64,000 nt of DNA from Spirosoma sp. GTDB taxonomy: Bacteria; Bacteroidota; Bacteroidia; Cytophagales; Spirosomataceae. Shown here piece by piece: positions 31,063 through 49,455 of the stretch (positions are counted from its first letter, which is position 1; every line of letters starts with the position of its first letter). Below the pieces are notes generated by a model that was not told the origin of the DNA, made no database searches, and saw only the letters and a list, made by a program, of their open reading frames with translations. Position numbers and translations under genes: made by a program. The stretch is taken from the NCBI RefSeq assembly GCF_026391055.1, contig NZ_JAPLET010000022.1:835648-899647 (forward strand), written 5' to 3'.

Positions 31063-32508
31063 ATGCCTATACGCATTGATAAGCCAGTCGGGTCCGACTG
31101 GCAGTACTCTCTCGACCAAGCCAACTGGCAGATCAGCAACGTCTTTGACAAAGCGGCCGGTGGGGTTGATTTCATCGTCGGCAACGTCTACCTGGTGTAT
31201 TGCCGTAACCAGGTCCAGAACGCCTTCAGCCAGGACGCCATCATATTTGGCGATAAGAACAACCAGACGCCCACCCTCGATCAGGTTGCCAAAACGGGCA
31301 GTGCTGCTCACATGGGTATCACGGATGCCCTGGTAAAGCTTTTGGGCGGTCTGTTTCTGGGCAATATTCCCACCACGACCGAGAATTTCCCCCAGCTGGT
31401 GCTCGATGCTGATGGGAAAGTGTGGAAACGGGAAGGCTCCGTGGTGACGCCCCCGCCCGTGCGTAGCAACGCGTTTCGGAATTTCCAGCACTACGAATTC
31501 GTGCCCAAAGTGGTGGCAGAAGCGCCCAAAATTGCCCGGATTGACGTCAACGATTGCCAGCGGATTACGGGCTGGGGGTATGGAGGCCCCTTGCGCATTG
31601 AGCGTGATGGCGTGCCGGTAGCCTATATCAACCCGACTATCGCCCGACCTGACGTGGTAAGCTATTTGGCTACGCAAGGCATCACAGCGGACAGTGACGA
31701 GTTGGGCTTTGTGTATTACAAGTCTGCCAGTGAATCGGCGGGTACCCACACCTGGGAGGTATTCGTGGGCAGCAGCAGCGTGAAGGCAACCACCGATGTG
31801 GGCGCACCGACTTCGGTGACTTGTTCGGTACCTGACCCATCCAACCCGGCTCCCTCGCTGGCCAATCCTACAGACAACTGGACGATTACCGCCTTCAATG
31901 GTACCTCAAAAGTGCTGGCCCAAAACCAGTTCAGCGACAACGCGGGCGACACGGGTACGCTCAGAGCCTATTTCTACAATGAGCAGCTCAAGTCGTACAT
32001 GTCCCTGCCTGACTGGCTGGTTTTTGACCCGGCCACCCGAACCTTCGCGCAACCCCCGGCCGGCACGCCAAACCAGACCCTTACCATTCGCGTCGTCTAC
32101 GTCGACAGCGCCTACCAGTCGGCTGATGATGAGTTCGAGCTAAAAATTGACGTACCGGTTACGGTGGTTCCCCTCATCACGCAGGTAAAGCGCAACTGGT
32201 CAGGATCATCGGTCCTTTATTCTGTCTACGGCAACAACCTCAACATCGGCAGTGGCGACCCCTTTGGCCTGCAAATACGCTGGAAAGTAGGCGAGCAGGA
32301 TAGCTGGTCGGCCTGGGAAGGTCCCGCCAGTGCCACGGCCAGCGTGCCCGGCACCTTCGGCAAAAACGTCGACCCTGATACAACAACCGTCTTCGAGGTC
32401 CGCATCGTCAGCGCCCAGGGCAGTGTCCGGGCGGGCAGCACCCTGCAATTCGCCTTCACGACAACCGCCTCCGCGCAGGCCCAAACCACCGTCTACCCGA
32501 CAGAATAA
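31063..32508 (+). CDS. Tail fibre-like protein with cadherin-like domain, 481 aa
   Basis: A soluble modular protein. The N-terminal 150 residues include TLDQVAKTG, typical of phage fibre linkers. Residues about 270-370 look like a cadherin-type/dystroglycan-type beta-sandwich: MSLPDWLVFDPATRTFAQ then PAGTPNQTLTIRV. The C-terminal 110 residues form a fibronectin-like repeat (EVRIVSAQGSVR). No signal peptide. It begins two bases after the previous stop and likely forms part of the tail tip. Confidence 0.6.
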   Translation: MPIRIDKPVGSDWQYSLDQANWQISNVFDKAAGGVDFIVGNVYLVYCRNQVQNAFSQDAIIFGDKNNQTPTLDQVAKTGSAAHMGITDALVKLLGGLFLGNIPTTTENFPQLVLDADGKVWKREGSVVTPPPVRSNAFRNFQHYEFVPKVVAEAPKIARIDVNDCQRITGWGYGGPLRIERDGVPVAYINPTIARPDVVSYLATQGITADSDELGFVYYKSASESAGTHTWEVFVGSSSVKATTDVGAPTSVTCSVPDPSNPAPSLANPTDNWTITAFNGTSKVLAQNQFSDNAGDTGTLRAYFYNEQLKSYMSLPDWLVFDPATRTFAQPPAGTPNQTLTIRVVYVDSAYQSADDEFELKIDVPVTVVPLITQVKRNWSGSSVLYSVYGNNLNIGSGDPFGLQIRWKVGEQDSWSAWEGPASATASVPGTFGKNVDPDTTTVFEVRIVSAQGSVRAGSTLQFAFTTTASAQAQTTVYPTE

Positions 32509-32510
32509 CC

Positions 32511-33113
32511 ATGGCGTATTTCACCGCAATATTCGATGATTTCGAGGACGGCGTGCTGCTCTCCAGCACGAACGTCATTATTCCCTATGATGGAGATCAG
32601 TACACCTGCTCGCAGATCGAGCAGTACCTGGCCTCGCTCACCTCTGAGCAGAGACTAGTTTGGCGCAGTCTGAGCACTACCCAGCCGCCACCGCCACCGA
32701 CTGACTTCGAGGTAGCCCTGCGCGGTTGTTCAGGCCCCATAACCAGCAGCTCATGGTCAGCCGATACCGATTTTGGTCCTGACCTGATCGATGACCGGCC
32801 ATCGTGGGCCCTGCTGCTGCGCTACTCCTACGCAAGTGGTGTGCTGACGCTGGAAGCCCCCGACACCATCGGCCAGATCAAATTCGAGCGGCAGGATGGC
32901 ACGGCCTTCAGCACCACCAACCCCGACAATGTACCCATTCAATCGGGCAATTTCTACCCCTCTGGTGATCTCGATGACGGCAACTACAAACGTCGCTGGC
33001 AGATCAATCTGGGCATTTTCCCCATGAAAATCACGGCTGAGCAGGATGGCGGCTCAGCCACAGTCGTCTATCAGTTCACCCCCACCGCAAACGCTAATCG
33101 CATCAATCTGTAA
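32511..33113 (+). CDS. Hypothetical phage tail-region protein, 200 aa
   Basis: Not recognised. A soluble beta-rich protein with a Pro-rich hinge (QPPPPPTDF) after residue 60 and a C-terminal domain of strands. Its last base overlaps the next start (TAATG). Confidence 0.6.
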   Translation: MAYFTAIFDDFEDGVLLSSTNVIIPYDGDQYTCSQIEQYLASLTSEQRLVWRSLSTTQPPPPPTDFEVALRGCSGPITSSSWSADTDFGPDLIDDRPSWALLLRYSYASGVLTLEAPDTIGQIKFERQDGTAFSTTNPDNVPIQSGNFYPSGDLDDGNYKRRWQINLGIFPMKITAEQDGGSATVVYQFTPTANANRINL

Positions 33114-35323
33114 TGAAAAAGTTATCACTTCTCCTGCTGGGGCTGCTCCTGGCGTTTACCGCTACCTACGCCCAGACCTACAAACTTCAGAAGGTCAAAC
33201 GGACGTTCTCCGGCACTGTTCAAAAAGGATTTAGTCGCCGTGACATGGGCCTTTATCCGGCGACCAGCCAGGGTAATACCAATTTCTTTACCGCCCTCAA
33301 TGCGGGCTGTGTATCGCTTACCCTCAACTCGGGTCAGGTAATTCCGGTATCGTCCGGATGCTCGTCCGGCGATACCCGCCCCTTCTGCTCCAGAGGGCCA
33401 ACGGTGACGAACCTGACGGTAAACTCCCCTTCGTCCATGCTGGTCCAGTATGATGGGGATGGTCTGAGCAGTATTGACTGGAAAATCGAGCAGAGCGGCA
33501 CGGCCGTTCGTTCGGGCAATTCAGGCACGCTCACCACCAGCACGTTTACCATTAATTTAAGTTCGGCCCTTTCGGATGGCAGTTACACGCTCGTGCTGGA
33601 CGGTACGATCTGTAAGACCACCGACCCGGCCGCTGCCCGGCGAACCTTTACGGTCAGCACCACCACGACGACACCACCCCCGGTCACCACGACGGCCTAC
33701 TTCCGGGACGGCTTTGGTGAAGGAAGCGTCAGTCAGCTCATGCTGTCGGCCCCCTTTACGCCAAATTTTAGTGACGCGTCGAGCAATCAGTACTCCTCAC
33801 TTCCCTTGGGCAACCAGACGATGTACATACAAAATGCCAACATAAAATTCGGCATTGGTAAAGCACTCGGCGGGGCGATAAAGTGGCTGAGCATTGGCAA
33901 TGGCGAGAACCTGGTCAACACCAACGCCGACGGCTATAAGGGGGTATTCGAAGGGCTACCGGCTCCCGATGGCGGGCGGTCTGGCGGCTGGAGCATGTAC
34001 GGCACGCCGGGGCATGACTTCCATGATAACGGCATGAGCACGTCAGAGTACTTCGACACGGGTATGAACTGGGTGCACGGTGGTAGTACGTATCACGATA
34101 TGTCCAAAATTACGTGGTACGAAAAACGCAATATTTCAGGGTATGGGGAGGTCATGTACTGCCGGGGCGTACCGCGTCAGTGGGCGATTCGGAACTCGTA
34201 TGGCCAAACCGTCTATCACTGCTGGTGGTGGCTGGAGGGCAATTCAGTGCGCTACTTCTCGATTCTGGAAAACAACCGCACCGACACCCAGATGATCTAT
34301 CAGGGTAGGCAGCAGGAAGCCCCCTTCATCTTCCCCATCGCTAAAATGTGGCACCACAAAGTGCCCGTGCCGGGCGGTATCCAGACCATTACACCCGTTC
34401 CTCCAGTGGAAGGATCGGGCACGGATGGGGTTCGGTGGACTGATATTTATGCCGCATCAGCCCACTGGTTTGGGGCCGTCAATGACAATGATATTGGCAT
34501 TTTCAATATCCCTCAGTTCAATTCCCGCTTTCAGGGCAGCATTTCGCAGGCTATTTCGGGGGATGAGTTCTCGAATGCCACGAGCTACAATAACTCGGCC
34601 GCGATGATGCAGTGGGCTGATCTGCCGGGTACCAATGTAGCGTTTAGCGGGGCCTTCTACGCGGGTTCACTGACTAATTTTTTGAACTGGTACGACAATT
34701 CGGGCTTCACCTACACCAAGTTTGACTGGTCGTTTGGCCAGAACCAGACGGCGGGCTGGTGGAGTGAAAATGGCGCGGCCAAGTTCATCAACAACCGGTA
34801 CGCGCTCAACATCGGCTATGGTAGACCTGGCGATAATGGCACTCCGTTGGAGGGACAGACGGTGCATTTTGCGGCGCTGGCCTCGCCGTTCGGGACATGG
34901 CCTGCCTCAACCATTCCCACGATCTACATTAAGGGAACGTTCCCCCCGAACATTACCAGCTACGTGCTGAAGTGGAAAAAGTGTGGGATGGATAATAGCC
35001 CCGAATACACCAAGACGTTCAGCGTGAACAATTCGGGTACCGAGCAGACCGTGGCCATCCCCATGAGTGGGGTCAGCAACTGGGACGGGCAGATTGCCAA
35101 TATCCGAATCCAGATGGCGGATTTTCTCCAGCCGACGTCAGGCTCCGAGCTATTCGTGCCAAGCTATATCGGCAATATCAACCCCAATTCCGCTTCTGAC
35201 TGGCAAGCCCTGTTAACACTTGCGGTTGGCCTGGGGACTGGCTTAAAGCGACGAAAAAACACACTGTCCGTTCGCCAACGGCGCCCAAAGCAGCAACTAC
35301 GTAGACCCCAATTAATACCATGA
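33113..35323 (+). CDS. Secreted multi-domain protein in fibre block, 736 aa
   Basis: A Sec signal peptide (residues 1-20, ending TYAQ) starts this large protein, unusual for a phage tail gene. After a Ser/Thr-rich region and a Thr-Pro linker (TTTTTPPPVTTT, about 188-198) comes a 500-residue domain rich in Trp, Tyr and Gly with HGGSTYHDM and CWWWLEGN, looking like a carbohydrate-active or binding protein. The end is a very basic, low-complexity tail (RRKNTLSVRQRR). No T9SS sorting domain. Function is unknown; a polysaccharide-binding role is a guess from composition. Confidence 0.6.
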   Translation: MKKLSLLLLGLLLAFTATYAQTYKLQKVKRTFSGTVQKGFSRRDMGLYPATSQGNTNFFTALNAGCVSLTLNSGQVIPVSSGCSSGDTRPFCSRGPTVTNLTVNSPSSMLVQYDGDGLSSIDWKIEQSGTAVRSGNSGTLTTSTFTINLSSALSDGSYTLVLDGTICKTTDPAAARRTFTVSTTTTTPPPVTTTAYFRDGFGEGSVSQLMLSAPFTPNFSDASSNQYSSLPLGNQTMYIQNANIKFGIGKALGGAIKWLSIGNGENLVNTNADGYKGVFEGLPAPDGGRSGGWSMYGTPGHDFHDNGMSTSEYFDTGMNWVHGGSTYHDMSKITWYEKRNISGYGEVMYCRGVPRQWAIRNSYGQTVYHCWWWLEGNSVRYFSILENNRTDTQMIYQGRQQEAPFIFPIAKMWHHKVPVPGGIQTITPVPPVEGSGTDGVRWTDIYAASAHWFGAVNDNDIGIFNIPQFNSRFQGSISQAISGDEFSNATSYNNSAAMMQWADLPGTNVAFSGAFYAGSLTNFLNWYDNSGFTYTKFDWSFGQNQTAGWWSENGAAKFINNRYALNIGYGRPGDNGTPLEGQTVHFAALASPFGTWPASTIPTIYIKGTFPPNITSYVLKWKKCGMDNSPEYTKTFSVNNSGTEQTVAIPMSGVSNWDGQIANIRIQMADFLQPTSGSELFVPSYIGNINPNSASDWQALLTLAVGLGTGLKRRKNTLSVRQRRPKQQLRRPQLIP

Positions 35324-35673
35324 AAAACCTGCTCTTACAACAGGCACTGACCGCCCTGCTGGCGGCAAACCCCAAACTACGCTACGATGATGGTTCAGGG
35401 GATTCATCGGGTGAAAAGCTCAAAATTGTCCGGTTGCCCTGGTGGCGAGTCCGGCTCTGGAAGGGCGAACGGGACGGCAAAGCCGAAGCCCGGCTGAAAT
35501 ACTGGGAAGAGAACGTCCCGGCTTCAGCGGAGCTGTGTGCCCTGCTGACAGCCCCCAACTCACTGGTGAGCTTCAAGCGCAACATCAACAAGGACGTTAA
35601 AGTCGACCTCTACATTCTGGTGTCGTTTGGCTGGTGGTACGTCGGTATCAAAACCACCCTGATCGAAACTTAG
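35320..35673 (+). CDS. Hypothetical protein, 117 aa
   Basis: Not recognised. A basic Trp-rich protein (LPWWRVRLWKGERDGK) that overlaps the previous gene by four bases and is followed by a strong terminator, so it ends the first part of the tail operon. Confidence 0.55.
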   Translation: MKNLLLQQALTALLAANPKLRYDDGSGDSSGEKLKIVRLPWWRVRLWKGERDGKAEARLKYWEENVPASAELCALLTAPNSLVSFKRNINKDVKVDLYILVSFGWWYVGIKTTLIET

Positions 35674-35677
35674 TCGG

Positions 35678-35722
35678 GGCTGGGATCGGCCACTCGAAGC
35701 CGATCCCAGCCATCTGTTTTTT
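35678..35722 (+). terminator. Strong intrinsic terminator
   Basis: Perfect 13-bp stem GGCTGGGATCGGC/GCCGATCCCAGCC (35678-35690, 35699-35711), then a T-rich tract. It separates the tail operon from the methyltransferase gene. Confidence 0.9.
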
Positions 35723-35747
35723 CTTTTTCTATTAATCTATCTAAGCA

Positions 35748-36500
35748 ATGATTCTCACTCGACCGGGCAACAAACGACGCATCGCCCAAGCCATTATCGC
35801 TCACTTCCCTGAGCATGACACCTATATCGAACCCTTTTTTGGGGCGGGTGGCCTGTTCTTCAGTAAACCAAAAGCTAAACACAACATCGTCAATGACTAC
35901 GACAGCGAAGTCTACAACCTCTTTAAGGTAATCGTCGATCGAAAGCCTGAGCTTATGAACTTCTGGTCCATTATGCCGGTGCACGAAGACCTCTGGAAGT
36001 ACTGGAAAGCCAATCCGGAAGGGGATCCGATTCGAAAAGCGGCCCGCTTTCTGCTGTTTTCTAACTTCTCCTTCATGGGCCGCATGACGACCATGTGTTT
36101 TGGCCAGAGTAATGCCTACCCACTGGTGGCCCAGCGCATCCAGCAGGTGCACGAGCTGATGCGGGGTGTCCAGCTGATGAACTGTGATTTCCGTAAAATG
36201 CTCAGCCGCATTTCGATCCGGCCCGGCTCCGAAAAGCGGGTCTTCATCTACTGCGATCCGCCGTATCTGGAAACCAAAGGGGGTAATTACGAAGGGTTCA
36301 CCGAGACCGACTGCGATGATCTCTTTGACGCACTTGTCTCGTCTGGCTACCGGTTTGCCATTTCGGAGTTTGACCATCCCTATATCCTTTCGCTGGCCAG
36401 CAAGCACAAGCTGAATGTGATTCACATAGGCGAGCGCCAAAACATGAAGAACCGGCGAATGGAAATCCTGATCACCAATTACAGCCTGCCTTCCGCCTAG
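35748..36500 (+). CDS. DNA adenine N6-methyltransferase, D12 class (Dam-like)
   Basis: A 250-residue orphan methyltransferase of the Dam/MT-A alpha class. The SAM-binding motif I is EPFFGAGGLFF near residue 30 and the catalytic motif is CDPPYLETKG near residue 173, i.e. DPPY. There is no restriction partner nearby. In phages such enzymes protect DNA from host restriction or change gene timing. A terminator upstream and a hairpin downstream isolate it, so it is likely an inserted cargo gene within the fibre block. Confidence 0.92.
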   Translation: MILTRPGNKRRIAQAIIAHFPEHDTYIEPFFGAGGLFFSKPKAKHNIVNDYDSEVYNLFKVIVDRKPELMNFWSIMPVHEDLWKYWKANPEGDPIRKAARFLLFSNFSFMGRMTTMCFGQSNAYPLVAQRIQQVHELMRGVQLMNCDFRKMLSRISIRPGSEKRVFIYCDPPYLETKGGNYEGFTETDCDDLFDALVSSGYRFAISEFDHPYILSLASKHKLNVIHIGERQNMKNRRMEILITNYSLPSA

Positions 36501-36536
36501 AGGCCCAGCCTGAAGTGGAGCAGTAAACCAGAGTAT

Positions 36537-36562
36537 CCCACCAGCGAGCAAAGGCTGGTGGG
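36537..36562. terminator. Hairpin after methyltransferase gene
   Basis: Nine-bp stem CCCACCAGC/GCTGGTGGG (36537-36545, 36554-36562) with an 8-nt loop. Only CTTCC follows, so termination would be weak. Confidence 0.5.
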
Positions 36563-36591
36563 CTTCCTAAACCCAATTCAAAACTTGTACC

Positions 36592-38718
36592 ATGAAACCA
36601 CTACTGTTTTTATTGTTCCTCTTTTCTCTCGCCATTCCTCTACGGGCTCAGGTGTCCGAACCCACGGCCATCCGCATCTACCGCATCAGCGACCAGATCA
36701 CTACCGCTGACGCGGCCGGCAACATCACGGGTTTCTACCCTTATGCCGATGTGTCAGTTAAAGCGGAAGGGGCGCTCATTAAAGTAAGCGTTAAAGGGGT
36801 TGGTACTCTTTACTACTCGCCTGCTCTGTTCTGGACCGAGCAGGGAACCCCCTACGGCTCGACCGTTAACGCAGCACTCAACCTGTATCTGCTCAGTATT
36901 CCGGCTAGCTCATCGGGCGGCAGTGGGGGTACAACGGCAGCCACGACCAACGCCGGTGCACTCGTCTCGGGTACCCTGGACGACGCCCGGTTGAGTGCGA
37001 ACGTAGTCAAAACGACCGGCTCCTACTCAAATCCCACCTGGCTTTCGGCTCTCGATCCATCACGTATCAGTCAGAACAGTTTGAACCGGTTTACCAGTGA
37101 TGCTGAAAAGGACGCCTGGAATGCCAAACAAGCTCCACTCGTTTCGGGCAGCAATATCAAGACAATCAACGATATCCCCATACTTGGACCGGGCAACATA
37201 GTCATTGGCGGTGGAAGCGGAGGCACAACGACCAGTGCCACTTCGCTGACGGCTGGCACACTTGACGATGCAAGGCTCTCTGCCAATGTGGTCAAGACGA
37301 GCAGTACGTATTCGAATCCCGGATGGATCACCGCCTTTGATCCGACACGAATTACCCAAACAAGCCTGTACCGGTTTGTGAGTGACAATGAGAAATTAGC
37401 CTGGAACAACAAACAGGATGCGTTGGGGTTTACGCCCTTCAATAATGCGGATGCTCTAACCGTAAACTACACCGGGGCTGGCGTCTCGGTCAACCAGGTC
37501 GACAAAACCGTGACGGTTACCATTCCGGGGGGAACTTCCGTGGTAATCGATCAGGCATTAAATAGCTCATCCGTCAATGGGATTGCCAACGGGGTGGTCG
37601 CTTCAGCCCTCAATACACTGACAACGGGATTGTCGACGGCTAATGGCAACATTGCTACTAACACAGCCAGTATTGCTACTCACACGACCGGCATTGCTAC
37701 CAATACCAACAGCATTACAGCCAATACAGCCAGTATTGCTGCCATTTCATCGGCCATCACAGCACTCAATGCCACGGTGGTCAGTCTCCAGTCGCAGGTA
37801 GCGGCACTAACAGGAACGTTCACCATTGCAGCACCGGCGCTTACGGCGAGTAACATCACTAACACCGGAATGACCTTAAGCTGGCCCGCGTCAACGAGTG
37901 CGACCAGCTATGCCCTTGAGATGGCGACCAACGCCGGATATACGACCGGCCTGGTGAGTCTGACGACGACGTCGGCCCTGAGTTATGCCGTTACCGGCCT
38001 GACGCTGGGTACCCAGTACTGGTTCCGCATTAAGGCATCGGGCGGGGCGGGCACTACGGCTTCGGCGTATGGTACCACCACGGCAACGACCACATCGGTG
38101 GCCGAAGCTAGCTATACCGTTACCCGTATCATTCGGGGTCAGAACATGCAGTCGACGTTCGCTGTCGCCACAACCGCCAACGTCAACCAGCTGAAGCCGA
38201 CGGCGAGCCAACTTACCACCGCAGGCGGTGGGTATACCTCCCAGAGTCTGATCACCGAAACGGGTACGGCTTCGGGGGTCACCCTGAGTATTACGGCTCC
38301 GTTCGCGCAGGCCTCGTCCTCGCTGAGTACGTCTGCGGTAGCGGGTAGTTTGTACCCCCTCGATATGTATAAAGGTGCCTGGATGGTGACCTCGGCAACG
38401 CCAGCGCAGGTGAGCTTCAACAACCTCGACCCAACCAAGAAATATCGACTGCTCCTGTATCCTGTGTCGGCAACCTCAACGGGCTCCACGGCCTTCGTGG
38501 TTGGTGGCGTCACCAAAGAAAAGGCTGTTTCCAACAACTTTGGTGTCGGTGGCGGAAACGAATTAGACCCCAACACGGCGCTCGTCGAATTTAAGAATAT
38601 CACGCCTGACGGTAACAACGCCATTTTGATGAACGTCAACCGGGGTACTGTAACCGGTTCCGGCAGTGTACCCTGGAACACGTTTGTGCTGGAAGAATAT
38701 AGCGGAACAAGACCGTAA
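36592..38718 (+). CDS. Exported tail-fibre-like protein with fibronectin III domain, 708 aa
   Basis: Signal peptide residues 1-20 (ends LRAQ). Residues 25-105 are a domain almost identical to the start of the 42012 product (AIRIYRISDQITTADAAGN). Two tandem repeats then follow, each with LDDARLSANVVKT, LDP(S/T)RI and a DAEK..WN..KQ-type motif, about 90 residues apart, a phage fibre pattern. A Thr/Asn/Ile-rich coiled region (ATNTASIA repeats), a fibronectin-III-like domain (about 410-500) and a beta-rich tip complete it. It looks like a fibre stalk with a lectin-like tip, yet has a Sec signal. Confidence 0.7.
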   Translation: MKPLLFLLFLFSLAIPLRAQVSEPTAIRIYRISDQITTADAAGNITGFYPYADVSVKAEGALIKVSVKGVGTLYYSPALFWTEQGTPYGSTVNAALNLYLLSIPASSSGGSGGTTAATTNAGALVSGTLDDARLSANVVKTTGSYSNPTWLSALDPSRISQNSLNRFTSDAEKDAWNAKQAPLVSGSNIKTINDIPILGPGNIVIGGGSGGTTTSATSLTAGTLDDARLSANVVKTSSTYSNPGWITAFDPTRITQTSLYRFVSDNEKLAWNNKQDALGFTPFNNADALTVNYTGAGVSVNQVDKTVTVTIPGGTSVVIDQALNSSSVNGIANGVVASALNTLTTGLSTANGNIATNTASIATHTTGIATNTNSITANTASIAAISSAITALNATVVSLQSQVAALTGTFTIAAPALTASNITNTGMTLSWPASTSATSYALEMATNAGYTTGLVSLTTTSALSYAVTGLTLGTQYWFRIKASGGAGTTASAYGTTTATTTSVAEASYTVTRIIRGQNMQSTFAVATTANVNQLKPTASQLTTAGGGYTSQSLITETGTASGVTLSITAPFAQASSSLSTSAVAGSLYPLDMYKGAWMVTSATPAQVSFNNLDPTKKYRLLLYPVSATSTGSTAFVVGGVTKEKAVSNNFGVGGGNELDPNTALVEFKNITPDGNNAILMNVNRGTVTGSGSVPWNTFVLEEYSGTRP
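36659..36905 (+). repeat. Direct repeat shared with 42079-42325
   Basis: The DNA encoding the N-terminal domain after the signal peptide is closely similar, mostly at synonymous differences, to that in the gene at 42012. Both copies are in the same orientation and about 5.4 kb apart, so recombination could delete or swap the fibre segments between them. Confidence 0.75.
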
Positions 38719-38725
38719 CTGATCC

Positions 38726-41700
38726 ATGAAGAAACTTATCTTTCTCCTGCTCCTGATCGCAGTCGGTCAGGGGCAGGCACAAAGCCTGAGAATGCCCTGG
38801 CGCACAGTGACGGGCAGCAGCACTAGCCAGCCCACAGAGCCTACTCAGCCGGTATCCAATTCCAACATCGTCACCCTGACGATTACCTATGCCAGTGCGC
38901 CGACATCGCCGACCGCTACGTTTGCCCCACTCAAGTACAACAAACAAGCCTGGTTCCAGTATGAGCGTGACGATCTGCTAAGTGCTACCTGGACCGACTA
39001 TCAGTTTTTTCAGGGGAAAACGCACACCGATGGAGCGGGTAATGCCGTCAAGTGGCGGGGTAGTACCGTCGTAAATGCCCGGTCGAACTTCAACAATGGC
39101 GATTTGTGGGGCATTGCGGGGAAGCTGACGGCCGCTCAGATTGCGACGATGGTACGCGACGGTAAATGGGGTGTACTCAATCACGGCTATTACCATGATA
39201 CGCCAACGTCCAATAATTTCTATCCCCCCTCCAGTGCAACCTATTCGCAGGCGGGCTGGGATTTGGCCGAAAACCAGAAGTTCACCTACGACAAGTTAAA
39301 AGCCGAAGGTGTAGAATATGCCATGCGGGGCGTTGTGCTGCCCTCTTCCCATGCGGGCTTCGTGCGGGGGGCTGATTCGCTGCAATACCTGGGCATTACC
39401 ACCACGGCGGCAAGGGATGGCTATACCGGCTATCCCACGAACACGGCCTACAATCCTGCCAACGATGGGGCCAATTTCCTGAATGAAGAAAGCTTGCCGG
39501 TCGCCGGAACCACGCTGTTTGGCAATACGGGTTTTGTGCAATACACGCGAAATCTTCAGGACAGCTGGAACGCGACCACTGTCGGCACACTCAAAGCGCA
39601 GTTTGTGGATCTGCTGGCCAAGAGCAATGCCAGTAAACACCTCGGCATGCGCCTTGCGACGCACTCAGGTACGTATCCGGAAATGAGCGATTTTTTCAAT
39701 TACGCCGATTCGGTTGCCGCCGATCGGGTCTGGTTCGCGGGTATGACCGAGCAGCTTGAATACCGGGAAATGAAACGGCTGGCCCAGAAGAGTCAGGCAC
39801 TTTCGGGTAATACGCTGACGGTTAGTCTGGACGTGAGTTCAGTTCCGTCTGTGAACCGGTTCCGGGATATGAGCCTGTTGGTGGGCGGTGGCACGATCAC
39901 CAGCGTGACGGCTACGGGCGCCCATGACCGGATGTCGTACAATCCCAGTACCGGGCTGATTAATATTTTCTGGGAGAAAACGACGGTCGCTAATCCGGAT
40001 CTGGTAGCGGCTGGCAGCACGCTCGCCATCGTCGGCCCTGACTCGGTAGCGGAAGGAGCCTCCGGCAGCTATCAGATAACCAGAACAACACTGGCCGGTA
40101 CCACATCGGACGTGACCGCCAGTGCTTCTTTGTCAGCCAGCCGGGGAATGGCTTCCGGCCTGACCATTACGCCCGGCAGTCAGATTACGCTGGCCAATGC
40201 AACGAATGTGGTGAAAGGCGATCATCGCATAACGACCCTTACGGCCAGCTATCAGGGGAAGACCGTCACGCGGGAGATCGTGCTGAAGGATGCGACAGGT
40301 ACGCCTTCATCCATCGCGCACCGGATGGTGACTGCTGACGATATTAGCATGTGGCCGCAAATGAAACTAGGCGATCTGATTGTGCCAGGCGCAACGTTTG
40401 GGTTTGGTAGTGCTACCGATCACTCGATTCAGATTAGGACCAGCCGCCAGAACGCCCCCACCCTGGCACCTGGCTCGACGATCTGGGTCAAGGGAGCTGA
40501 CTACGTGAACGTGGTGATTCAGCTTGATTCATCCCGAACGACGGATGGTCAGGCACCCATCCAAATCCGGAACTACGACGGTCAGGTCAAGGTCCTCAAC
40601 TCCCTGAATATTCTGGGGGCACAGGGATTGCTATTGTCAGGACGGTATGACCCGGTGAGTGGGGCTGGGGATAGCGACTACCGGGGCCATGAAGGGAATT
40701 ATCCGATCCGGGCTGACCGCTACGGGTTTCTGCTCGATAACCGATGGACGGATTCGAGCAAAAATGGCTTAGTGATGGATGGCGGCTGTCAGCGCGTGGA
40801 GTCTGAATTTATGGAACTTAGAGGGGGCTACTTCGCGCCCGTGTTCGTCAACGGGAGGAATTACGATATGCGGGTTGCGGGCAGTACGGTGTGTCTGCCC
40901 TACAAGAATATGAAATACCACGACCTTTATATTCATGACTCCGAGTCGGAAGGGTTCTACATGGGCAATACAGCTGCGGACGTGTGGGCCAAATTTGACT
41001 CGTTGGAGATCTACAACAATGTCATTGTGCGGGCGGGAACGGAGGCCATTCAGGTGGGACAGCTTCACAAGGGAACGCGTATCCATCATAACGTCGCCAT
41101 GGGAAATTTGAATGCGAAAAATGCTTTCAAAAAATTCCAGGACAATAGCCTTCAGACTGATCTGCGGCAGGGCGGGCACCTGATCGAGAAAAACCTGTTC
41201 ATTCGCGGAGGTGAGAAATTCATCAATGGTCAGTCACGGTTAACGGAAGATGTATCGAAGGTGACGCTGGCCACTGACACGGTGCTGATCCGACGCAATG
41301 CGTTCCTATTCAATACCGGCCTGTTTGAATCCTACTATAACACGACAGGCGGCCAGACGGCTATACCTAACCTGACGTTCGCGTTTCAAAACAACTGGTT
41401 TGGCCACAACCGATTCGTCTATAATCTGATCTATCCGACCGCGCCCAGAGAGAACTTCATTATGAAGTTTGAGGTGAAAGGGGCGAACTCAAAAGTAATC
41501 GTTACAGGGAACACCTTTGATGGCAGTTCGCCGGTCACAACTTGGGTCAATAATACCAGTCCAGGGAATACGACCGTCACCGAGTCAGGTAACACGCTGT
41601 CAGGTACGGTGCCACATCCGGAGTTCGTCAATACCGGCTTCGGGCCAAACTTCGACTTTACCACGCTGGAATTCTGGACCGATAAGATCGGCAATTCATC

Positions 41701-41995
41701 ACAGTTTCCCACCGATGGCACCGCGAAGGGTACATTGGTGACAGTACCCGTGGGTGAGTTTCGGTCGTATCACGGCATCATCTACGAATCGAAAGCGGCT
41801 AATAATACCGCCATCCGGCCGGGGTATCATGTCAACTGGCGGGATTACTGGAACCTGATTTACTGGGACCGGACAACGGGTGCAATGGTGCGGAACCCTA
41901 CCGATTTGAAGAACCTGTCGCCCATTCCGCCCGACAAATACAAACTGGTGCCCGGCTCATTCTACCAACAACAGGGGTTGGGACCCTCATTTTAA
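38726..41995 (+). CDS. Exported polysaccharide deacetylase/beta-helix protein, 1089 aa
   Basis: Signal peptide residues 1-19 (ends QAQ). The N-terminal part (about 65-380) resembles a polysaccharide deacetylase (NodB-like): Asp-Asp at 82-83 (QYERDDLL) and HGYYH at 153-157 match motifs 1 and 2. After a strand-rich linker with two Ig-like parts, residues about 540-950 look like a right-handed beta-helix (repeated short strands with Asn and Gly turns), as in phage depolymerases. The last 60 residues contain a CBM-like piece (YHGIIYESKAANN, then NWRDYWNLIYWD). It may deacetylate and cut surface polysaccharide; this is inference. Confidence 0.7.
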   Translation: MKKLIFLLLLIAVGQGQAQSLRMPWRTVTGSSTSQPTEPTQPVSNSNIVTLTITYASAPTSPTATFAPLKYNKQAWFQYERDDLLSATWTDYQFFQGKTHTDGAGNAVKWRGSTVVNARSNFNNGDLWGIAGKLTAAQIATMVRDGKWGVLNHGYYHDTPTSNNFYPPSSATYSQAGWDLAENQKFTYDKLKAEGVEYAMRGVVLPSSHAGFVRGADSLQYLGITTTAARDGYTGYPTNTAYNPANDGANFLNEESLPVAGTTLFGNTGFVQYTRNLQDSWNATTVGTLKAQFVDLLAKSNASKHLGMRLATHSGTYPEMSDFFNYADSVAADRVWFAGMTEQLEYREMKRLAQKSQALSGNTLTVSLDVSSVPSVNRFRDMSLLVGGGTITSVTATGAHDRMSYNPSTGLINIFWEKTTVANPDLVAAGSTLAIVGPDSVAEGASGSYQITRTTLAGTTSDVTASASLSASRGMASGLTITPGSQITLANATNVVKGDHRITTLTASYQGKTVTREIVLKDATGTPSSIAHRMVTADDISMWPQMKLGDLIVPGATFGFGSATDHSIQIRTSRQNAPTLAPGSTIWVKGADYVNVVIQLDSSRTTDGQAPIQIRNYDGQVKVLNSLNILGAQGLLLSGRYDPVSGAGDSDYRGHEGNYPIRADRYGFLLDNRWTDSSKNGLVMDGGCQRVESEFMELRGGYFAPVFVNGRNYDMRVAGSTVCLPYKNMKYHDLYIHDSESEGFYMGNTAADVWAKFDSLEIYNNVIVRAGTEAIQVGQLHKGTRIHHNVAMGNLNAKNAFKKFQDNSLQTDLRQGGHLIEKNLFIRGGEKFINGQSRLTEDVSKVTLATDTVLIRRNAFLFNTGLFESYYNTTGGQTAIPNLTFAFQNNWFGHNRFVYNLIYPTAPRENFIMKFEVKGANSKVIVTGNTFDGSSPVTTWVNNTSPGNTTVTESGNTLSGTVPHPEFVNTGFGPNFDFTTLEFWTDKIGNSSQFPTDGTAKGTLVTVPVGEFRSYHGIIYESKAANNTAIRPGYHVNWRDYWNLIYWDRTTGAMVRNPTDLKNLSPIPPDKYKLVPGSFYQQQGLGPSF

Positions 41996-42011
41996 TACCA
42001 AACCCTCTACC

Positions 42012-43415
42012 ATGAAATCACTTAGTTTAATCTATACCCTGCTTTTCAGCCTGCTTATGGCCAGTGCGCAGGCTCAGTTTTCCGAATCATCGGCCATCCG
42101 CATCTACCGCATCGGCGATCAGATTACCACGGCTGATGCGGCCGGCAACATCACAGGCTTTTACCCTTACGCGGATGTGTCGGTTAAAGCGGAAAGGTCA
42201 CTCGTCAAGGTGAGCATCAAAGGAACCGGCTCGCTCTACTACACCCCTGCTCTGTTCTGGAGTGAGCAGGGAACCCCTTACGGCTCGACGGTTAGTGCTG
42301 CACTTTATCTCTATCAGCTCAGCATTCCCCTGACTACATCCGGAGGAGGCAGCAGTACTGGAGTTGTGACCGATGCTTCGCTTATTTCTTCAGGTGTTTT
42401 TTCTGAAGCCCGGCTACCGGCAAGCGTTGTCAAAACCACGTCGACGATCACAAACCCCACGTTTATTACGGGTTTGGATCCAAGCCGAATTACCCAGGGT
42501 CCAACCGCTCGATTTGCGTCTGATGCTGAAAAGGAAGCCTGGAATGCCAAACAGGGGGCTATCACCACAACGACGGATTTAACCCCCCGAAATATCACCG
42601 TGAACGGTACGCTAACGGCTCCTACGCCCGTCACCGGCACGGCCAGTAATGTGGTGGCCACAACGAAATACACTCTCGATGAGGTCATGCGCATTCTGAG
42701 GGACTCCCTGCTGGCTCAGTACATGCCCCAGTTTGATCCGGCCCAGTTTGTCAGCGTCGATACGCTGGGTACGTCGTTCATTCGCATCAAGCCCGGGTTA
42801 GTGACTGCCTCGACGTCGGGAACGGCAACACCAGCGTCGGTAACCGGCCGGGTGGCCCTGACCTTCACCGACGCTGGTGTTGCGGCCCCGATCGTCGCGA
42901 TCGACAGCTCCAGTACTGCGCTCAGGTATTACAAAGGGGGCAGCCCAGTCGACTGGGACAGCGGTCCCAATAGCGGGGTTTCAACAACCAGACTACCCGC
43001 GGGTACTGAAGGCTATCTGGAAATGCGCTATTTCCCGATGCAGGATTTTGCCGCTATTGGCTTCAACACATCGGGCATAAAGACTGAGCAGAACCTGAGC
43101 CGCTATCAGGCGGGCGTCTACGTCAACAGTTCCGGCAAGATTGCCACCGTTGTGCAGGGCCGGGCTTCGCTGGAAGTGGCCAGCACCTTCACCGCAGCAC
43201 CGGGCAGTTACATAAGACTTCGACGGACAGCGACGGGCACCTTCAACGTGGAGTACTCTGCTGACGGAGCGAGCTACAGTACCATCCTGACGGACATACG
43301 CTCGAGCGTTCCTTCGGTTACGCCCATCACCAGTATCCTGTATGCCGGTGTGGCCATCCATTTCAACGGACGGGTGTATATGCCCTCCTCCTCCAACAAC
43401 TTCGTAACGTACTGA
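42012..43415 (+). CDS. Exported tail-fibre-like protein, paralogue of 36592 product, 467 aa
   Basis: Signal peptide residues 1-21 (ends QAQ). Residues 24-105 repeat the N-terminal domain of the 36592 protein; then one linker repeat (FSEARLPASVVKT, LDPSRITQGP, DAEKEAWNAKQ) and a KYTLDEVMRIL helix. The C-terminal 200 residues form a beta-rich, lectin-like tip (VALTFTDAG, then YYKGGSPVDWDSG). The shared base with different tip suggests alternative receptor binding. It overlaps the next gene by TGATG. Confidence 0.7.
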   Translation: MKSLSLIYTLLFSLLMASAQAQFSESSAIRIYRIGDQITTADAAGNITGFYPYADVSVKAERSLVKVSIKGTGSLYYTPALFWSEQGTPYGSTVSAALYLYQLSIPLTTSGGGSSTGVVTDASLISSGVFSEARLPASVVKTTSTITNPTFITGLDPSRITQGPTARFASDAEKEAWNAKQGAITTTTDLTPRNITVNGTLTAPTPVTGTASNVVATTKYTLDEVMRILRDSLLAQYMPQFDPAQFVSVDTLGTSFIRIKPGLVTASTSGTATPASVTGRVALTFTDAGVAAPIVAIDSSSTALRYYKGGSPVDWDSGPNSGVSTTRLPAGTEGYLEMRYFPMQDFAAIGFNTSGIKTEQNLSRYQAGVYVNSSGKIATVVQGRASLEVASTFTAAPGSYIRLRRTATGTFNVEYSADGASYSTILTDIRSSVPSVTPITSILYAGVAIHFNGRVYMPSSSNNFVTY

Positions 43416-46400
43416 TGAAGACCAGGCTTTTATTTATTCTGTTGATTGGGTTTAGCCTGAGTAGTCTGGGACAGGTTCGCCAGAAGCTCAGCAAGCCCAA
43501 TCCGGCCGTGCCGACCACCAGGGGAGCACTCAAAAAAGCACCTGCTCAACCTGGTGCCGTACTACGGGCCGCCATCAGCCGACCCGTGACGGTGACTGTT
43601 TCCGGCTCCTTTACCCTCCCGGTAGCAGCCAGAGCCACCCTGGGGGTGTATGCTCAAAATGGCGAGCTGGTGCGGACGGTTTATGCGGGCGTTCAAAAGG
43701 AGGCTGGCACCTACACCGAGACCTGGGACGGCAAGAATGACCTGGGTGAAACCCTGCCGGAAGGCGACTATAAACTGCGATTGCAAACCAACAATGTGCA
43801 GTACAAGTGGATGGGCGTGCTGGGTAACACCTCCTTTAACCGGGCAAATCCGGCCGGGATGCAGAAGGGATACCGTCGGATCCAAACCATGGTCATCGTA
43901 AACGGTATCGCCTACTTTGGCAATGGCTACGCCGAGGGCCATCCGTCCCAGGCTTCCTTCGATGTGAGCAATCCACAGGTACGGATTGACTTCTTTCGGG
44001 ATAGCAAGACCGGACAGGCCACGCGCATGATGTGCAGCGACGGCATCCGGGTGTATGCCGGAGGCCCCGACATTTTCAGTGTTGACAAGAAGATCAACTT
44101 CATTTTTGGCTGGACAGTCAGCACCAACGCTGAATACAGCTTTACCGGTGGCGGGCAGCTCTTCAAGACCGCCCAGGGGCAGGACTGGGGCGAAACCTAT
44201 AAGTCAGCCCTGGTGATCACCGATACGGCCGGTTTACCCAAATATACCGACCTCATCAAAGGCATGGCCGTTCAGAAAACGGGCAACTACCTGTTTGCCT
44301 CACTGGGCTCGACTAAAAACGTCATCCGGATCTGGCATAAGGTAACCGGGGCCTTCGTGGCTGATGTGCCTGTTACTAGTCCTGGCGCACTGGCTATTGA
44401 TGCCCTCGATGACAACAAGCTCTGGGTCACCCAGGGCACGACCGTTTCGGCCAGAACCATTGGAGCGGGTAGTTTGAGCAGTCCGGTACTGACGCTTGCC
44501 GGCCTGGTCAAGCCGATGGCGATGGCCTGCCGGCCGGGGGGTGGTGAACTGGCCGTGTGTGACGGGGGCAGCTCGCAGCGGGTGATGTTCTACAACCCGG
44601 CTACCGGCGCTAAAACCGATTCGCTGGGCGTAAAGGGCGGCTACCGCAACGACCCGTCGGTGAGTTTTTATAAGTTTTATTTTGACGACCCGGCTCTGTC
44701 CATTGATGATACCTACCTGGCCTACCAGGCGGATGGCTCTTTCTGGGTGGGCGATGACGGCAACTACCGAAACCTCCGTTTCTCGGCGGCAAAGCAGTTT
44801 GTGGACCATGTGAGCTACATGGAAAACTGTTACACGACGGGTGTCGACAAGGCCAACCCGACCCGGCTCTTTGGGCAGTACATGGAATTCTCGGTCAGCG
44901 ACTACGCCAACCTGACGGCTACTTCGTCCTGGACGCTGGTCAAGAATTACCGATCGATGATGCCATCGGAGTACTTCGAGAATGAGTACAACCGGATGCA
45001 GAACATTTTTCAGGTCAACATCCTGCAACAGGTGATCACCATTGGGGGCCACACCTACGGCCTCATCCAGCGTTTCACCGATAAGAAGTATGCCGTTGTG
45101 GAGCTGATGCCAAGTGCGCCCCTGAAGTTTACGGGTCTCTATCTGGGCACCGGTTCGGTATCCAATCCAAATTCAGAAAGCTGGGTGCTGCTGCCCGACG
45201 GCAGTTTAGGCGTACACCGCACCAGCCTCAGTGGCGGCAATGGTACCGCTACCTGGTACAAACGCCCGTTTCTGGGCGTGGATGGGTCGGGTAATCCCGG
45301 CTGGGGAGCCGAAATCGCCTTGCAGAGCGTAGCCGTGACGCCAAACGATCCGTTTCCGGTCTACGGCGGCTCCGAGCCGTTTGGCATCACCACGGACGGC
45401 ACCATCGCGGCCTTCAATTCAACCCTGTTTAACCCCACTACCGGAGCGGGCCTTGGCTATCATTTGGGTGGGGTACGAGCCAATAAATGGCAGTGGAAAG
45501 GGGCGCTGGCCACCCACAAGGAGTACAAGGGAGACTTTCCGGCTGATGGCGGCTATGACATTGGCAACTCGGTCCAGTACGGCGGAGGCAATGCGCCGGT
45601 GGCAGGCAATGACATATTCTGGACGTATCATGGGGAGTTCTGGAAAGGCAGCCAGACCAACAAGTTCAATCACGTTCGCAGTAATGGCTTGTTTGTGGGT
45701 ACGTTCGGGGTAACGGGGCCGGATGCGGTGCGCGATCCGGCGAATAATCCGGGCATGGCCGGTAATGTCTTCGGTGCGACGGCCGTGCCGGCTGCCAACG
45801 GCAATATTTATTTGTTTCATGGGGAGGAATACGGCTGGTCGGGTATTCACGGCTGGGAGGTATCGGGCCTCAGCACGATCCAAACCCAGGAGGTGACCGC
45901 CACGGTCAGCAATGCGCCCGACCCAAGAGGCATACCCATTTTCGGTGGCCTGCCCAAGTACACGGTGCTGGCCAGCGGAACCGCCGGCTTAATTCGGTCT
46001 CCTCTCACTGATGACGGGGAGTACACCGTCCGCACCAACGCCCTGACCTACGCAAAAATTGGGGCACCCGATTTCTATTTCCAAAACAACAATAGCAGCG
46101 GAGAGAAATTTGCGACAGTCCCCTTCTCTACCGCCACTGGCGTTACCAGCTGGACAGTAAGCTTCACCCTTCAGGCGACCCAGTACTACCCTTCGGTGGG
46201 CGAGTTTGGCCAGGCCAATTCCGGTGGGGGCTACATCCGCATTCTGGATAATACGGGTAAGATTCTGGTCCAGTATTTCCAGAAAATAAGCGGCTCGAAT
46301 ACAATCATGGGTTTCAATGGCGTAACGGCCTATACTCGTCCTGGAGCCGGTGTGCCCGCTTACGTGCCCATCACGCTCGAATCAAACGGCACGACTATCA

Positions 46401-46558
46401 AATGCACGTACGGCAGTTACGGTACGGTCACCGTACCTCGGTATGACAACACGGCCAGCCTGACCGCTCCGGCCGCAGTGCAGGTGTTTTCGTGGGTCAA
46501 CGGCAACAATACGGGCCGGGTGTATGGCCTGCTTGACGCCTGGTTTCGGGCCAACTAA
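43415..46558 (+). CDS. Exported protein with FlgD-like domain and beta-propeller, 1047 aa
   Basis: Signal peptide residues 1-20 (ends SLGQ). Residues about 77-125 form a FlgD-type Ig-like domain: GELVRTVYAG, TWDGKNDLGE and PEGDYKLRLQ. A long middle part with repeated blade-like motifs (GTTVSARTIGAG, LVKPMAMACRPGG, VCDGGSSQR) fits a beta-propeller of the NHL or YncE kind. The C-terminal 170 residues look like a concanavalin-type lectin tip. This architecture is more typical of secreted bacterial proteins than phage fibres, yet the gene sits between two fibre genes and is coupled to the first. Confidence 0.65.
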   Translation: MKTRLLFILLIGFSLSSLGQVRQKLSKPNPAVPTTRGALKKAPAQPGAVLRAAISRPVTVTVSGSFTLPVAARATLGVYAQNGELVRTVYAGVQKEAGTYTETWDGKNDLGETLPEGDYKLRLQTNNVQYKWMGVLGNTSFNRANPAGMQKGYRRIQTMVIVNGIAYFGNGYAEGHPSQASFDVSNPQVRIDFFRDSKTGQATRMMCSDGIRVYAGGPDIFSVDKKINFIFGWTVSTNAEYSFTGGGQLFKTAQGQDWGETYKSALVITDTAGLPKYTDLIKGMAVQKTGNYLFASLGSTKNVIRIWHKVTGAFVADVPVTSPGALAIDALDDNKLWVTQGTTVSARTIGAGSLSSPVLTLAGLVKPMAMACRPGGGELAVCDGGSSQRVMFYNPATGAKTDSLGVKGGYRNDPSVSFYKFYFDDPALSIDDTYLAYQADGSFWVGDDGNYRNLRFSAAKQFVDHVSYMENCYTTGVDKANPTRLFGQYMEFSVSDYANLTATSSWTLVKNYRSMMPSEYFENEYNRMQNIFQVNILQQVITIGGHTYGLIQRFTDKKYAVVELMPSAPLKFTGLYLGTGSVSNPNSESWVLLPDGSLGVHRTSLSGGNGTATWYKRPFLGVDGSGNPGWGAEIALQSVAVTPNDPFPVYGGSEPFGITTDGTIAAFNSTLFNPTTGAGLGYHLGGVRANKWQWKGALATHKEYKGDFPADGGYDIGNSVQYGGGNAPVAGNDIFWTYHGEFWKGSQTNKFNHVRSNGLFVGTFGVTGPDAVRDPANNPGMAGNVFGATAVPAANGNIYLFHGEEYGWSGIHGWEVSGLSTIQTQEVTATVSNAPDPRGIPIFGGLPKYTVLASGTAGLIRSPLTDDGEYTVRTNALTYAKIGAPDFYFQNNNSSGEKFATVPFSTATGVTSWTVSFTLQATQYYPSVGEFGQANSGGGYIRILDNTGKILVQYFQKISGSNTIMGFNGVTAYTRPGAGVPAYVPITLESNGTTIKCTYGSYGTVTVPRYDNTASLTAPAAVQVFSWVNGNNTGRVYGLLDAWFRAN

Positions 46559-46576
46559 TCCAACTACATACGCGCT

Positions 46577-47374
<798 letters not shown>

Positions 47375-47380
47375 CTAACC

Positions 47381-48235
47381 ATGGCTTTTAAAACAGAAGA
47401 TACCCTCATTGAGGGTGTGCAGGACGACGGAACCGCAGAAGGCGTGATCCGTGCCAAAATTGTATCAGGTGAACTGGTCAAAGTACCCGCCTGGTTTTTG
47501 GACTGGAACGATACGACCAAAATCAACACCTTATTACAGACTGATAACAACGACGGTACGGGCTCTGGCTACAACCTGTCGGTTGTTGCCGGTCTGCCTG
47601 GCATTGCCAGTATCTCGACCATTATCTACGGGCGGGTGATCGGCATCCGCTACCGCCGTCCCAACTCGGCCGTTCCGGACTTCACCGTTGTCATTGACGG
47701 GGTGCCCTATGCCGTCAAGCCCAACGTCATTGCGCCACGGGCATCCAACATCGGCAATATGCTCGACCGGGAAACCCTTGTAATCATTGCCCAGGACCTT
47801 TCTGACACGGCCCATACGGTAGAACTGGTACTGCATGCCGATGCGCTGGCCAGCCGATCAGTTGTCATCTACGGCTTTCTGGCCGAGCGGCGGGCGGGCT
47901 ATCAGGAACGCATGCACAATGATTACATTATTACACAGGGCACATTAACCATAGCCGCAGTAGCCTTTCCCACAGCTGATCCGGCCAACAGCCGCCCTCA
48001 TCAGGGAGTCAAAAAAGTCTGGTATTACAATAAAAATACCACGACGGCCCGAAAGGTAACGCTCCAGTATGCCGGCTCGACGATTCGCGTCATCGACGTT
48101 CCTGCAGCCGGTACCGTTGAGGTGAATTTATCCGAGCGGGGCCTGATTGTTTCCGGCGCTTCGGCCACCACGGGGCTTAACCACTTTGCTGACGTTGACG
48201 CTGAGGTAACCTTCACTCTTTTTGGCTTAAAATAA
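47381..48235 (+). CDS. Hypothetical fibre-associated protein, 284 aa
   Basis: Not recognised. A beta-rich soluble protein (IYGRVIGIRYRRPNSAVPDF, VLHADALASRSVVIYG) without signal peptide. It begins 6 bp after the collagen-like gene and its stop overlaps the next start (TAATG). A particle protein is likely. Confidence 0.6.
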   Translation: MAFKTEDTLIEGVQDDGTAEGVIRAKIVSGELVKVPAWFLDWNDTTKINTLLQTDNNDGTGSGYNLSVVAGLPGIASISTIIYGRVIGIRYRRPNSAVPDFTVVIDGVPYAVKPNVIAPRASNIGNMLDRETLVIIAQDLSDTAHTVELVLHADALASRSVVIYGFLAERRAGYQERMHNDYIITQGTLTIAAVAFPTADPANSRPHQGVKKVWYYNKNTTTARKVTLQYAGSTIRVIDVPAAGTVEVNLSERGLIVSGASATTGLNHFADVDAEVTFTLFGLK

Positions 48236-49455
48236 TGAGAAAACGACAAGACAAATCCGCGCTGTTTCTAGCCCAAACCATTACCGCCATTGGCGACTCA
48301 CAGACTGATCTGAAAGCAGGCTACGGCGTAGCTGCCTATAACATGTGGACCGCTCAGCTTTCCAAGCGGCTCAACACCCTGGGCTGCAGCACAAAGCCCC
48401 GCTGTTTTGGGGTATCGGGCAACACAACCAGCGAAATGCTGGGCCGGGCCGGTCTGCTGTTTCTGTATGACACCCCGGCCATTGGGATTATTTACGGCGG
48501 TGTCAACGATGCGTTTGTTACCCATTCCGGGACAGCCACTGGCGGGACAGCTTCGACCATCACCCTGCAAAATACCGCTTCGGGCACGCTGGGAGCTTAC
48601 CTGAACTGTACCATTACCATCACCTCGGGGGCGGGGGCTGGTCAGAGCCGAACGATTACCGCCTATAATGGTGCGATCATATCAGGAGCCAACTACGTGG
48701 CCAGCGTCGATACGCCCTGGGTGACTCTGCCAACCAGCACATCCGTTTATTCAATTGGCTTACCGCCTGCTGCGGCCACCCAGGCGCATCTGCAGGCGCT
48801 GAGCAAAGTGCTCAAATACGGCGTCAGAGGGGATGAGCAGGGTCGGTTCGTCCACGTCTATTCTCAAGCTGATCTGCCCGCCAAAGGCAACATTGGTCAG
48901 CGCTACGTGGTCCTTAAGGACAGCTCCGCCACCGGCGGCGTGCAGGGCAGTCTCCCTGGGCAGAATGCCACCATTGCCGGCAATTATTCAGCATCACCCA
49001 AACAGTCGGTTTGGGAATACAGAAACCCCCAGGCGGGAGAGCTGGGCTGGAGCCGGATCGCCATCGACGGGACGGCTCCGTTTGCGGATGGTGTACAGAA
49101 AGTGGTAATTGTTTCGACCAACTACCAGAACTGGTCAAGCGGGGGTGACAACTACAATACCAGCACGAGCACCGGCACTCAATACGCCCAGTACATACCT
49201 ATTCGTTCGGCAGCCAAAGCGGCGGCTCTGGCTGATGCAGTGGTCTACTGTGACCTGTATGATTTTCAATCCAAGCTCATTTTTGGAGGCACTTTCAGCG
49301 GGCTGACCCTGAGCTCAGAGGCTGTACAGGGTTCGGCCACTTTTCACTATATCGACAACAACCAGCATCACGGGGATTATGGTCATGATACGGTGGCACG
49401 GGCCATACTCCAGACGATTACTGCGCAGGGCTGGCTGACCAGCCTGCAATCTTGA
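48235..49455 (+). CDS. SGNH/GDSL-type hydrolase in fibre block, 406 aa
   Basis: An esterase/deacetylase of the SGNH fold. The N-terminal ITAIGDSQTD contains the nucleophile Ser in GDSQ in place of GDSL, the Gly block is FGVSGNT and the Asn block is GGVND. The C-terminal Asp-His block is GDYGH, near the end. A beta-rich insertion with repeats lies in between (about 110-300). No signal peptide. In a fibre cluster it may remove acetyl groups from the surface polysaccharide, helping adsorption; this is inferred. Confidence 0.75.
   Translation: MRKRQDKSALFLAQTITAIGDSQTDLKAGYGVAAYNMWTAQLSKRLNTLGCSTKPRCFGVSGNTTSEMLGRAGLLFLYDTPAIGIIYGGVNDAFVTHSGTATGGTASTITLQNTASGTLGAYLNCTITITSGAGAGQSRTITAYNGAIISGANYVASVDTPWVTLPTSTSVYSIGLPPAAATQAHLQALSKVLKYGVRGDEQGRFVHVYSQADLPAKGNIGQRYVVLKDSSATGGVQGSLPGQNATIAGNYSASPKQSVWEYRNPQAGELGWSRIAIDGTAPFADGVQKVVIVSTNYQNWSSGGDNYNTSTSTGTQYAQYIPIRSAAKAAALADAVVYCDLYDFQSKLIFGGTFSGLTLSSEAVQGSATFHYIDNNQHHGDYGHDTVARAILQTITAQGWLTSLQS

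Follow-up and report, generated by a model that had tools for sequence, protein, structure and literature searches.

The DNA analysed here, 64,000 nucleotides of a Spirosoma genome of 8.0 Mb (G000:C22:835648-899647; hereafter the window), carries a prophage in which five genes of the fibre block, set among the tail genes, encode proteins with signal-like N-termini. In each of these, the putative cleavage site lies directly before a glutamine (Q), as the Q-rule for exported proteins of Bacteroidetes prescribes. Our preferred reading, held with slightly better than even confidence and drawn from sequence, is that the block is accessory cargo in the tail operon, encoding Sec-exported, probably glycan-active, fibre-like proteins. 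The observed features are the signal-like N-termini themselves, the Q-rule, on/off exchange of the signal among homologues, an accessory slot in the tail operon, portability of the block, and homologues on bacterial chromosomes. The five genes are:

33113-35323, plus strand: 736-aa fibre-like protein; predicted signal peptide 33113-33172, with Q21 the first mature residue
36592-38718, plus strand: 708 aa; predicted signal peptide 36592-36648, then module A (about residues 27-104), a phage fibre-shaft repeat, and FN3
38726-41995, plus strand: 1089 aa; predicted signal peptide 38726-38779
42012-43415, plus strand: 467 aa; predicted signal peptide 42012-42074; module A shared with 36592
43415-46558, plus strand: 1047 aa; predicted signal peptide 43415-43471; FlgD-type Ig domain

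The prophage is marked by a head protease, a weakly portal-like gene, a muramidase, tail genes, and a tape measure gene.

Q-rule signals in the tail block

By eye, all five proteins start with M-K, continue into a Leu/Phe-rich core, and arrive at A^Q or G^Q: TATYA^Q in 33113, PLRA^Q in 36592, GQGQA^Q in 38726, SAQA^Q in 42012, and SSLG^Q in 43415. A home-made rule for Sec/signal peptidase I signals (charge, a core of 8-10 residues, and small residues at -3/-1; later widened) calls all five, the best cut in 36592 falling five residues early because of the Arg. An earlier note on this DNA had placed signal peptides ending in AQ or GQ on these five open reading frames (ORFs), and had stated that none of the products carries a sorting domain of the type IX secretion system (T9SS). 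Both observations are borne out, the second by searches in which none of the five had an NCBIfam or Pfam match to such a domain. A lipobox cysteine after the core is likewise absent from all five, by eye. A cytoplasmic form made from a shared internal start was considered and rejected: no in-frame start giving a signal-less form is common to the five ORFs. The earlier label for these genes, fibre block, suits 33113, 36592, and 42012, which have homology to other fibre-type proteins, but is less well grounded for 38726 and 43415. A PHROG search at 0.01 gave no match for any of the five.

The wider comparison covers 29 stretches from the same bacterial family: the window; a second region of the same genome (G000:C24, found via module A); and 27 found via the tape measure or the conserved tail gene 49747, which has named relatives in Spirosoma, Fibrisoma, Arsenicibacter, and Larkinella. 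Three of the stretches (G421a, G371a, and G371b) end at a contig edge. The block lies between the conserved tail genes. Among its 138 genes of at least 150 aa, 53 are called, 80 uncalled, and 5 weakly called, the last being omitted from the comparison that follows. In a blind count, [AGS]Q occurs within residues 14-34 of 52/53 called versus 12/80 uncalled proteins, where chance would give about 20% per protein of such composition; block genes were treated singly though homologues are not independent, and the binomial value thus overstates significance. The rule finds Q at an allowed site in 49 of the 53, and inspection by eye adds two more (36592 and C24_16001); two of the 53 look closer to membrane segments or lipoproteins (G415_12836 and G120_13849). 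Signals are called in 19 of 32 block genes of at least 800 aa versus 7 of 37 below 250 aa. At least one called gene is present in 21 of the 29 stretches, and none in the other 8.

The trait is mainly restricted to the window's family and is rare elsewhere in the order. The tape-measure runs of 30 loci from other families contain 158 genes that reach 200 aa; 4 of these, all from two loci, have a Q-rule signal, and three more a signal call without Q. Across six related phage records, the rule detects no Q-rule signal in proteins of at least 300 aa; shorter proteins of 128, 187, and 233 aa carry one.

Signal-like starts occur in other settings too. Capsid-region proteins of related phages show them without Q (L047, 23978-25063; L048, 27885-30038; L049, 26299-28476), and the accessible text of PMC10367356 contains a similar remark about capsid proteins. 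Elsewhere in the window, a 122-aa protein encoded on the minus strand (61087-61455) has a Q-rule signal start, MKPLFFLLICSYAAIA^Q. At the nucleotide level, stems of at least 9 pairs lie within the first 84 nt of 12/53 called genes (window 38746-38777, for example), as against 1.9 expected from synonymous shuffles, and of 6/80 uncalled genes, as against 2.9; Leu CTG and Gln CAG codons may account for part of this excess.

The surrounding features of the window are:

29084-31060, plus strand: conserved tail gene that bounds the variable block on the left; signal in 0 of 25 homologues
31063-32508, plus strand: tail/adhesin-type gene, with matches mostly limited to part of the protein; signal in 0 of 13 homologues
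32511-33113, plus strand: 200 aa, no signal; most of the protein is homologous to the beginning of a 1552-aa G021 protein that does have a signal
35678-35711, plus strand: terminator-like hairpin of 13 pairs (10 G-C), T-rich afterwards, 3' of the first signal-bearing gene and a small neighbour
46577-47374, plus strand: 265-aa collagen-like fibre, no signal; its N-terminal domain is signal-bearing in sister prophages
48235-49455, plus strand: GDSL-like protein inside the block, no signal
49747-51834, plus strand: conserved tail gene that bounds the block on the right; a single call among 28 homologues (G444, apparently spurious)
52431-56351, plus strand: tape measure protein

The rule calls none of the eight genes 29084, 31063, 32511, 46577, 47381, 48235, 49747, and 52431; the earlier statement that 29084, 31063, 46577, and 48235 lack signals was therefore correct. 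Every called block seen whole (20/20) retains a large signal-less protein, meaning one that is 31063-like, another of 400 aa or more, or a 29084-like fusion of 900 aa or more. Just after the hairpin, at 35748-36500 within the fibre block, lies what we take to be a DNA adenine methyltransferase-like gene. A terminator-like hairpin likewise follows the first block gene of C24, and T-tailed hairpins occur in 5 of the 29 stretches. Terminator-like sites in the window region number 30, versus 18.8 in shuffles.

Exchange of the signal and portability of the block

Aligned all against all, called and uncalled block proteins gave 72 local alignments (60 among the matches listed). Homologues consistently lacking the signal, the outcome that the earlier note had named as telling against its view, are not what was found: homologues are mixed, some with the signal and some without. 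Homologous fibre proteins start either at a signal plus Q or straight at Met, and in N-terminal alignments the exchange falls at or near the signal boundary, such that signal-less homologues begin at about the mature start. Three pairs illustrate this: a collagen-type fibre of G004 with signal, and the window's signal-less 46577; a G371 protein with signal, and a G380 protein without; and two proteins from different prophages of G004, one of 962 aa with signal and one of 786 aa without, whose bodies match at 32% (about 1e-80). In all three pairs, at most 18 nt separate the signal-less ORF from the one before it, which makes an overlooked signal unlikely there.

Individual domains show the same mixture. 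The body of 33113 (about residues 200-690) belongs to a family that occurs both with and without signals, and podovirus record MW202691 has a 43415 homologue, annotated nhL, that lacks one. With the 36592 shaft stretch, 30 IMG/VR loci were matched in several related motifs, 29 of them readable and 27 N-complete; a signal is present in 0 of these 27 proteins, many of which are near-identical. These comparisons suggest that the signal is a clean on/off add-on of fibre proteins.

The block as a whole appears to be an accessory, movable gene set: as with morons, relatives lack the additional genes at the corresponding place. Mae-Yong924-2 has no block, and its 29084 and 49747 homologues share 4 nt. 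In BT-TP2, the border genes stand in reverse order with one small gene between them, one of the two matches being weak. A second phage type of the genus, with relatives among phage records that include RAP44, has its own slot. In five of its prophages, a 165-aa gene, which we take as a putative tail tube gene, is separated from the next small gene by one, two, or three genes with signals. Because these five were found with a module A query that included the signal, their 5/5 is partly selection, unlike the empty slot seen in RAP44, PT03, PJN03, and Versailles, where a gap of 68-79 nt, devoid of genes, follows the 165-aa gene. The slot genes of p00 were not matched by profile. G002 presents a third arrangement, five consecutive signal-bearing genes in a region that is phage-like by eye only.

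Portability is also seen within the Spirosoma genome itself. C24, a different prophage-like region, repeats the five genes in identical order, with tblastn identities to the window's five of 34, 63, 73, 69, and 56-76%. Nine other window genes were searched for there, and 31063 was the only one with a match; the C24 tape measure was named by eye and is not among the PF10145 matches. A second tape-measure gene, from another prophage type, lies at G000:C22:780702-781280 (L102 and L103), about 55 kb upstream of the window start.

Homologues also occur on bacterial chromosomes. In G010 and G007, both from the same genus as the window, a giant 36592-like gene (1633 and 2317 aa, respectively, with FN3 repeats) is followed by a 38726-like gene with 65% identity to 38726 over residues 1-419, signal included, and the two genomes have neighbour genes of the pair in common. 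Around the G007 copy, where the PHROG flank test was done, none of ten genes tested matched a PHROG structural family; two had matches to families without a known function, and one of the two matched a kinase family as well. The 38726 N-terminal domain was found in 3 of 200 family genomes: G007, G010, and G000, the last with three sites, including one on a contig of 10.7 kb.

Searches over wider collections were less productive. With 49747, no genome among 395 of the class matched besides its own, and a profile of module A (A2) found at least 5 genomes, among the matches listed, in 390 of the order; A2 is too variable to serve as a query for viral scans. No relative of 38726, 43415, or 49747 was confirmed among viral contigs, 33113 and 38726 found nothing at 1e-3 in the phage collection, and the 33113 body and 38726 found nothing useful among sequences of solved structures.

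Export, assembly, or conversion

The favoured reading of exported cargo supposes products assembled from phage-fibre and carbohydrate-related modules behind a Q-rule signal for Sec and signal peptidase I. These would be expressed mostly alongside the tail genes and would cross SecYEG; cleavage would leave Q as the N-terminus, which a host cyclase would cap as pyroglutamate. The proteins would then fold in the periplasm and be released at lysis (or earlier, by another route), there to bind or process envelope or extracellular polysaccharide. We infer actual export, its timing, a glycan target, and a benefit to the phage from the sequences described here. The five lack a T9SS domain, and the periplasm, with release at lysis, is therefore the best-supported destination.

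Export is supported by the Q-rule statistics, by the signal-bearing chromosomal homologues, and by a host glutaminyl cyclase homologue. The last is an M28-type protein, lipoprotein-like by eye, that matches solved glutamine cyclotransferases at E about 1e-100 and is a predicted cyclase; a plant-type cyclase (PF05096) was not matched in the host at 1e-5. As to function, we infer that the five proteins bind or process glycans. Signal-bearing proteins of sister prophages have collagen, beta-helix, and tail/baseplate-like domains, and matches to the shaft stretch of 36592 include a hypothetical protein of ZF40 as well as the IMG/VR fibre-type proteins. By eye, several block proteins of G004, G357, and G021 have an SGNH-like GNSIT motif ahead of a 33113-type body. 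An AF2 model of the body of 33113 itself (mean pLDDT 64, pTM 0.71) gave nothing clear against predicted viral structures, and the fold of the collagen-family N-terminal domain is generic Ig-like and non-diagnostic.

Several points weigh against this reading. The signal calls are rule-based; the body of 33113 bears a weak resemblance to galactose-mutarotase-like and GH36 domains; an outer-membrane export route was not found; and the pair on the chromosome may be left over from a phage. Of nine signal-bearing sister-prophage proteins tested, six match PHROG tail or virion families, which fits a role in the virion equally. The hairpin at 35678 may mean that four of the five genes are transcribed separately, not as simple read-through late genes. 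Cysteine parity shows no disulfide adaptation: among the 49 called genes that reach 200 aa, the cysteine number is even in 16, odd in 23, and zero in 10. The idea of such adaptation was rejected, as was O-glycosylation, the motif D[ST][AILVMT] being below expectation in both groups (79 versus 111.3; 80 versus 108.2).

Tailspikes and fibres are able to join particles in vitro. Virions might be assembled in two compartments, with true side fibres exported, cleaved, folded outside the cytoplasm, and joined to tails after lysis. This we consider rather unlikely, although several observations fit it: homologous N-terminal domains with and without signals occupy the same kind of operon block; signal-bearing proteins have shaft-type, collagen, and tail/baseplate-like domains; and most called genes closely follow the upstream ORF. 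However, the large signal-less protein is kept in every called block seen whole, the block is absent from related phage records, and two of the genes have chromosomal homologues with no recognised phage genes nearby. A bolder form, offered tentatively and with similar doubt, is that in tailed phages of this family a swappable signal decides if a fibre is added to the particle within the cell, after leaving it, or never, the exported side fibres being carried by Sec, cut before Q, capped with pyroglutamate, and docked at lysis.

The same signals would serve lysogenic conversion, in which the lysogen would express the cassette and display or secrete its products, thereby excluding superinfecting phages or altering the cell surface. 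The hairpin and inserted methyltransferase-like gene, which part four of the window's genes from the upstream tail genes, and the chromosomal homologues also accord with it. Yet the upstream ORF is no more than 50 nt away for 41/52 called genes, a tight spacing within the tail operon; promoter-like sites are at expectation (12 found versus 12.0, with a consensus perhaps ill suited to the phylum); and neither a lipobox (by eye) nor a T9SS domain is present in the five for reaching the surface. We consider conversion quite unlikely. Very unlikely is a passive origin, with signals that arrived on host-captured genes and have been tolerated without function. The signal-bearing chromosomal homologues of 36592 and 38726 and the on/off variation among fibre homologues would fit such a history, but the signals, Q included, are intact across divergent proteins, and recur in two tested phage types and in two further prophage-like arrangements recognised by eye.

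The earlier note had left three interpretations side by side: export, assembly after export, or an uncleaved N-terminus. Exported cargo is now favoured on the evidence above, and the uncleaved anchor is disfavoured because nothing about an anchor that stays in place would call for Q at +1. A hydrophobic core is the sole point in favour of an uncleaved membrane anchor or packaging tag; the cleavage signature in 52/53 called proteins, and signal-less homologues that begin about where the mature protein would, make this the least credible of the explanations considered.

Relation to known systems

Fibre-like genes in tail operons are usually taken to encode receptor-binding proteins of the virion. 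If the block products are exported, they would instead be proteins that the phage makes for the surface or for polysaccharide, or else side fibres whose assembly takes place outside the cytoplasm; predicting host range from such genes would then mislead. The on/off pairs are natural matched constructs for testing either idea.

Published work offers partial precedents. Among the matches listed from the open-licence literature, as represented by titles and the opening parts of abstracts, no description of Sec signals on tail-operon fibre genes was found. The accessible text of PMC5723332 notes that two Bacteroides phages have signal peptides, for which it suggests an interaction with the membrane, and that of PMC6199706 states that signal peptides are absent from phage target proteins of diversity-generating retroelements. 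The Q-rule substrates of Sec and signal peptidase I in Bacteroidetes treated in PMC5837995 are likewise cut before Q and paired with a host cyclase; the proteins described here differ in being prophage-encoded, phage being unmentioned in the portion of that text available.

Closest are the Porphyromonas gingivalis prophages of PMC10367356 (proposed Nixviridae), for which the accessible text reports five Q-rule genes of unknown function; its authors infer use of host secretion. Those too are Bacteroidota prophage genes with Sec signals that expose an N-terminal Q, whereas fibre architecture, a place in the tail operon, and on/off exchange, all found here, are absent from the description in that text.

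Two familiar classes of phage gene frame the comparison. With tail fibres and tailspikes (collagen-like, shaft-repeat, and beta-helix), the block proteins share modules, but unlike cytoplasmic virion fibres they carry a predicted export signal, the 27 N-complete IMG/VR shaft relatives all being signal-less. With moron or lysogenic-conversion genes, they share an accessory position between structural genes, but they are large, fibre-built, and often multi-gene, with the T-tailed hairpin in just 5/29 stretches. Accessory phage genes and Q-rule export are thus known kinds; what is unusual here is the architecture and the on/off exchange of the signal.

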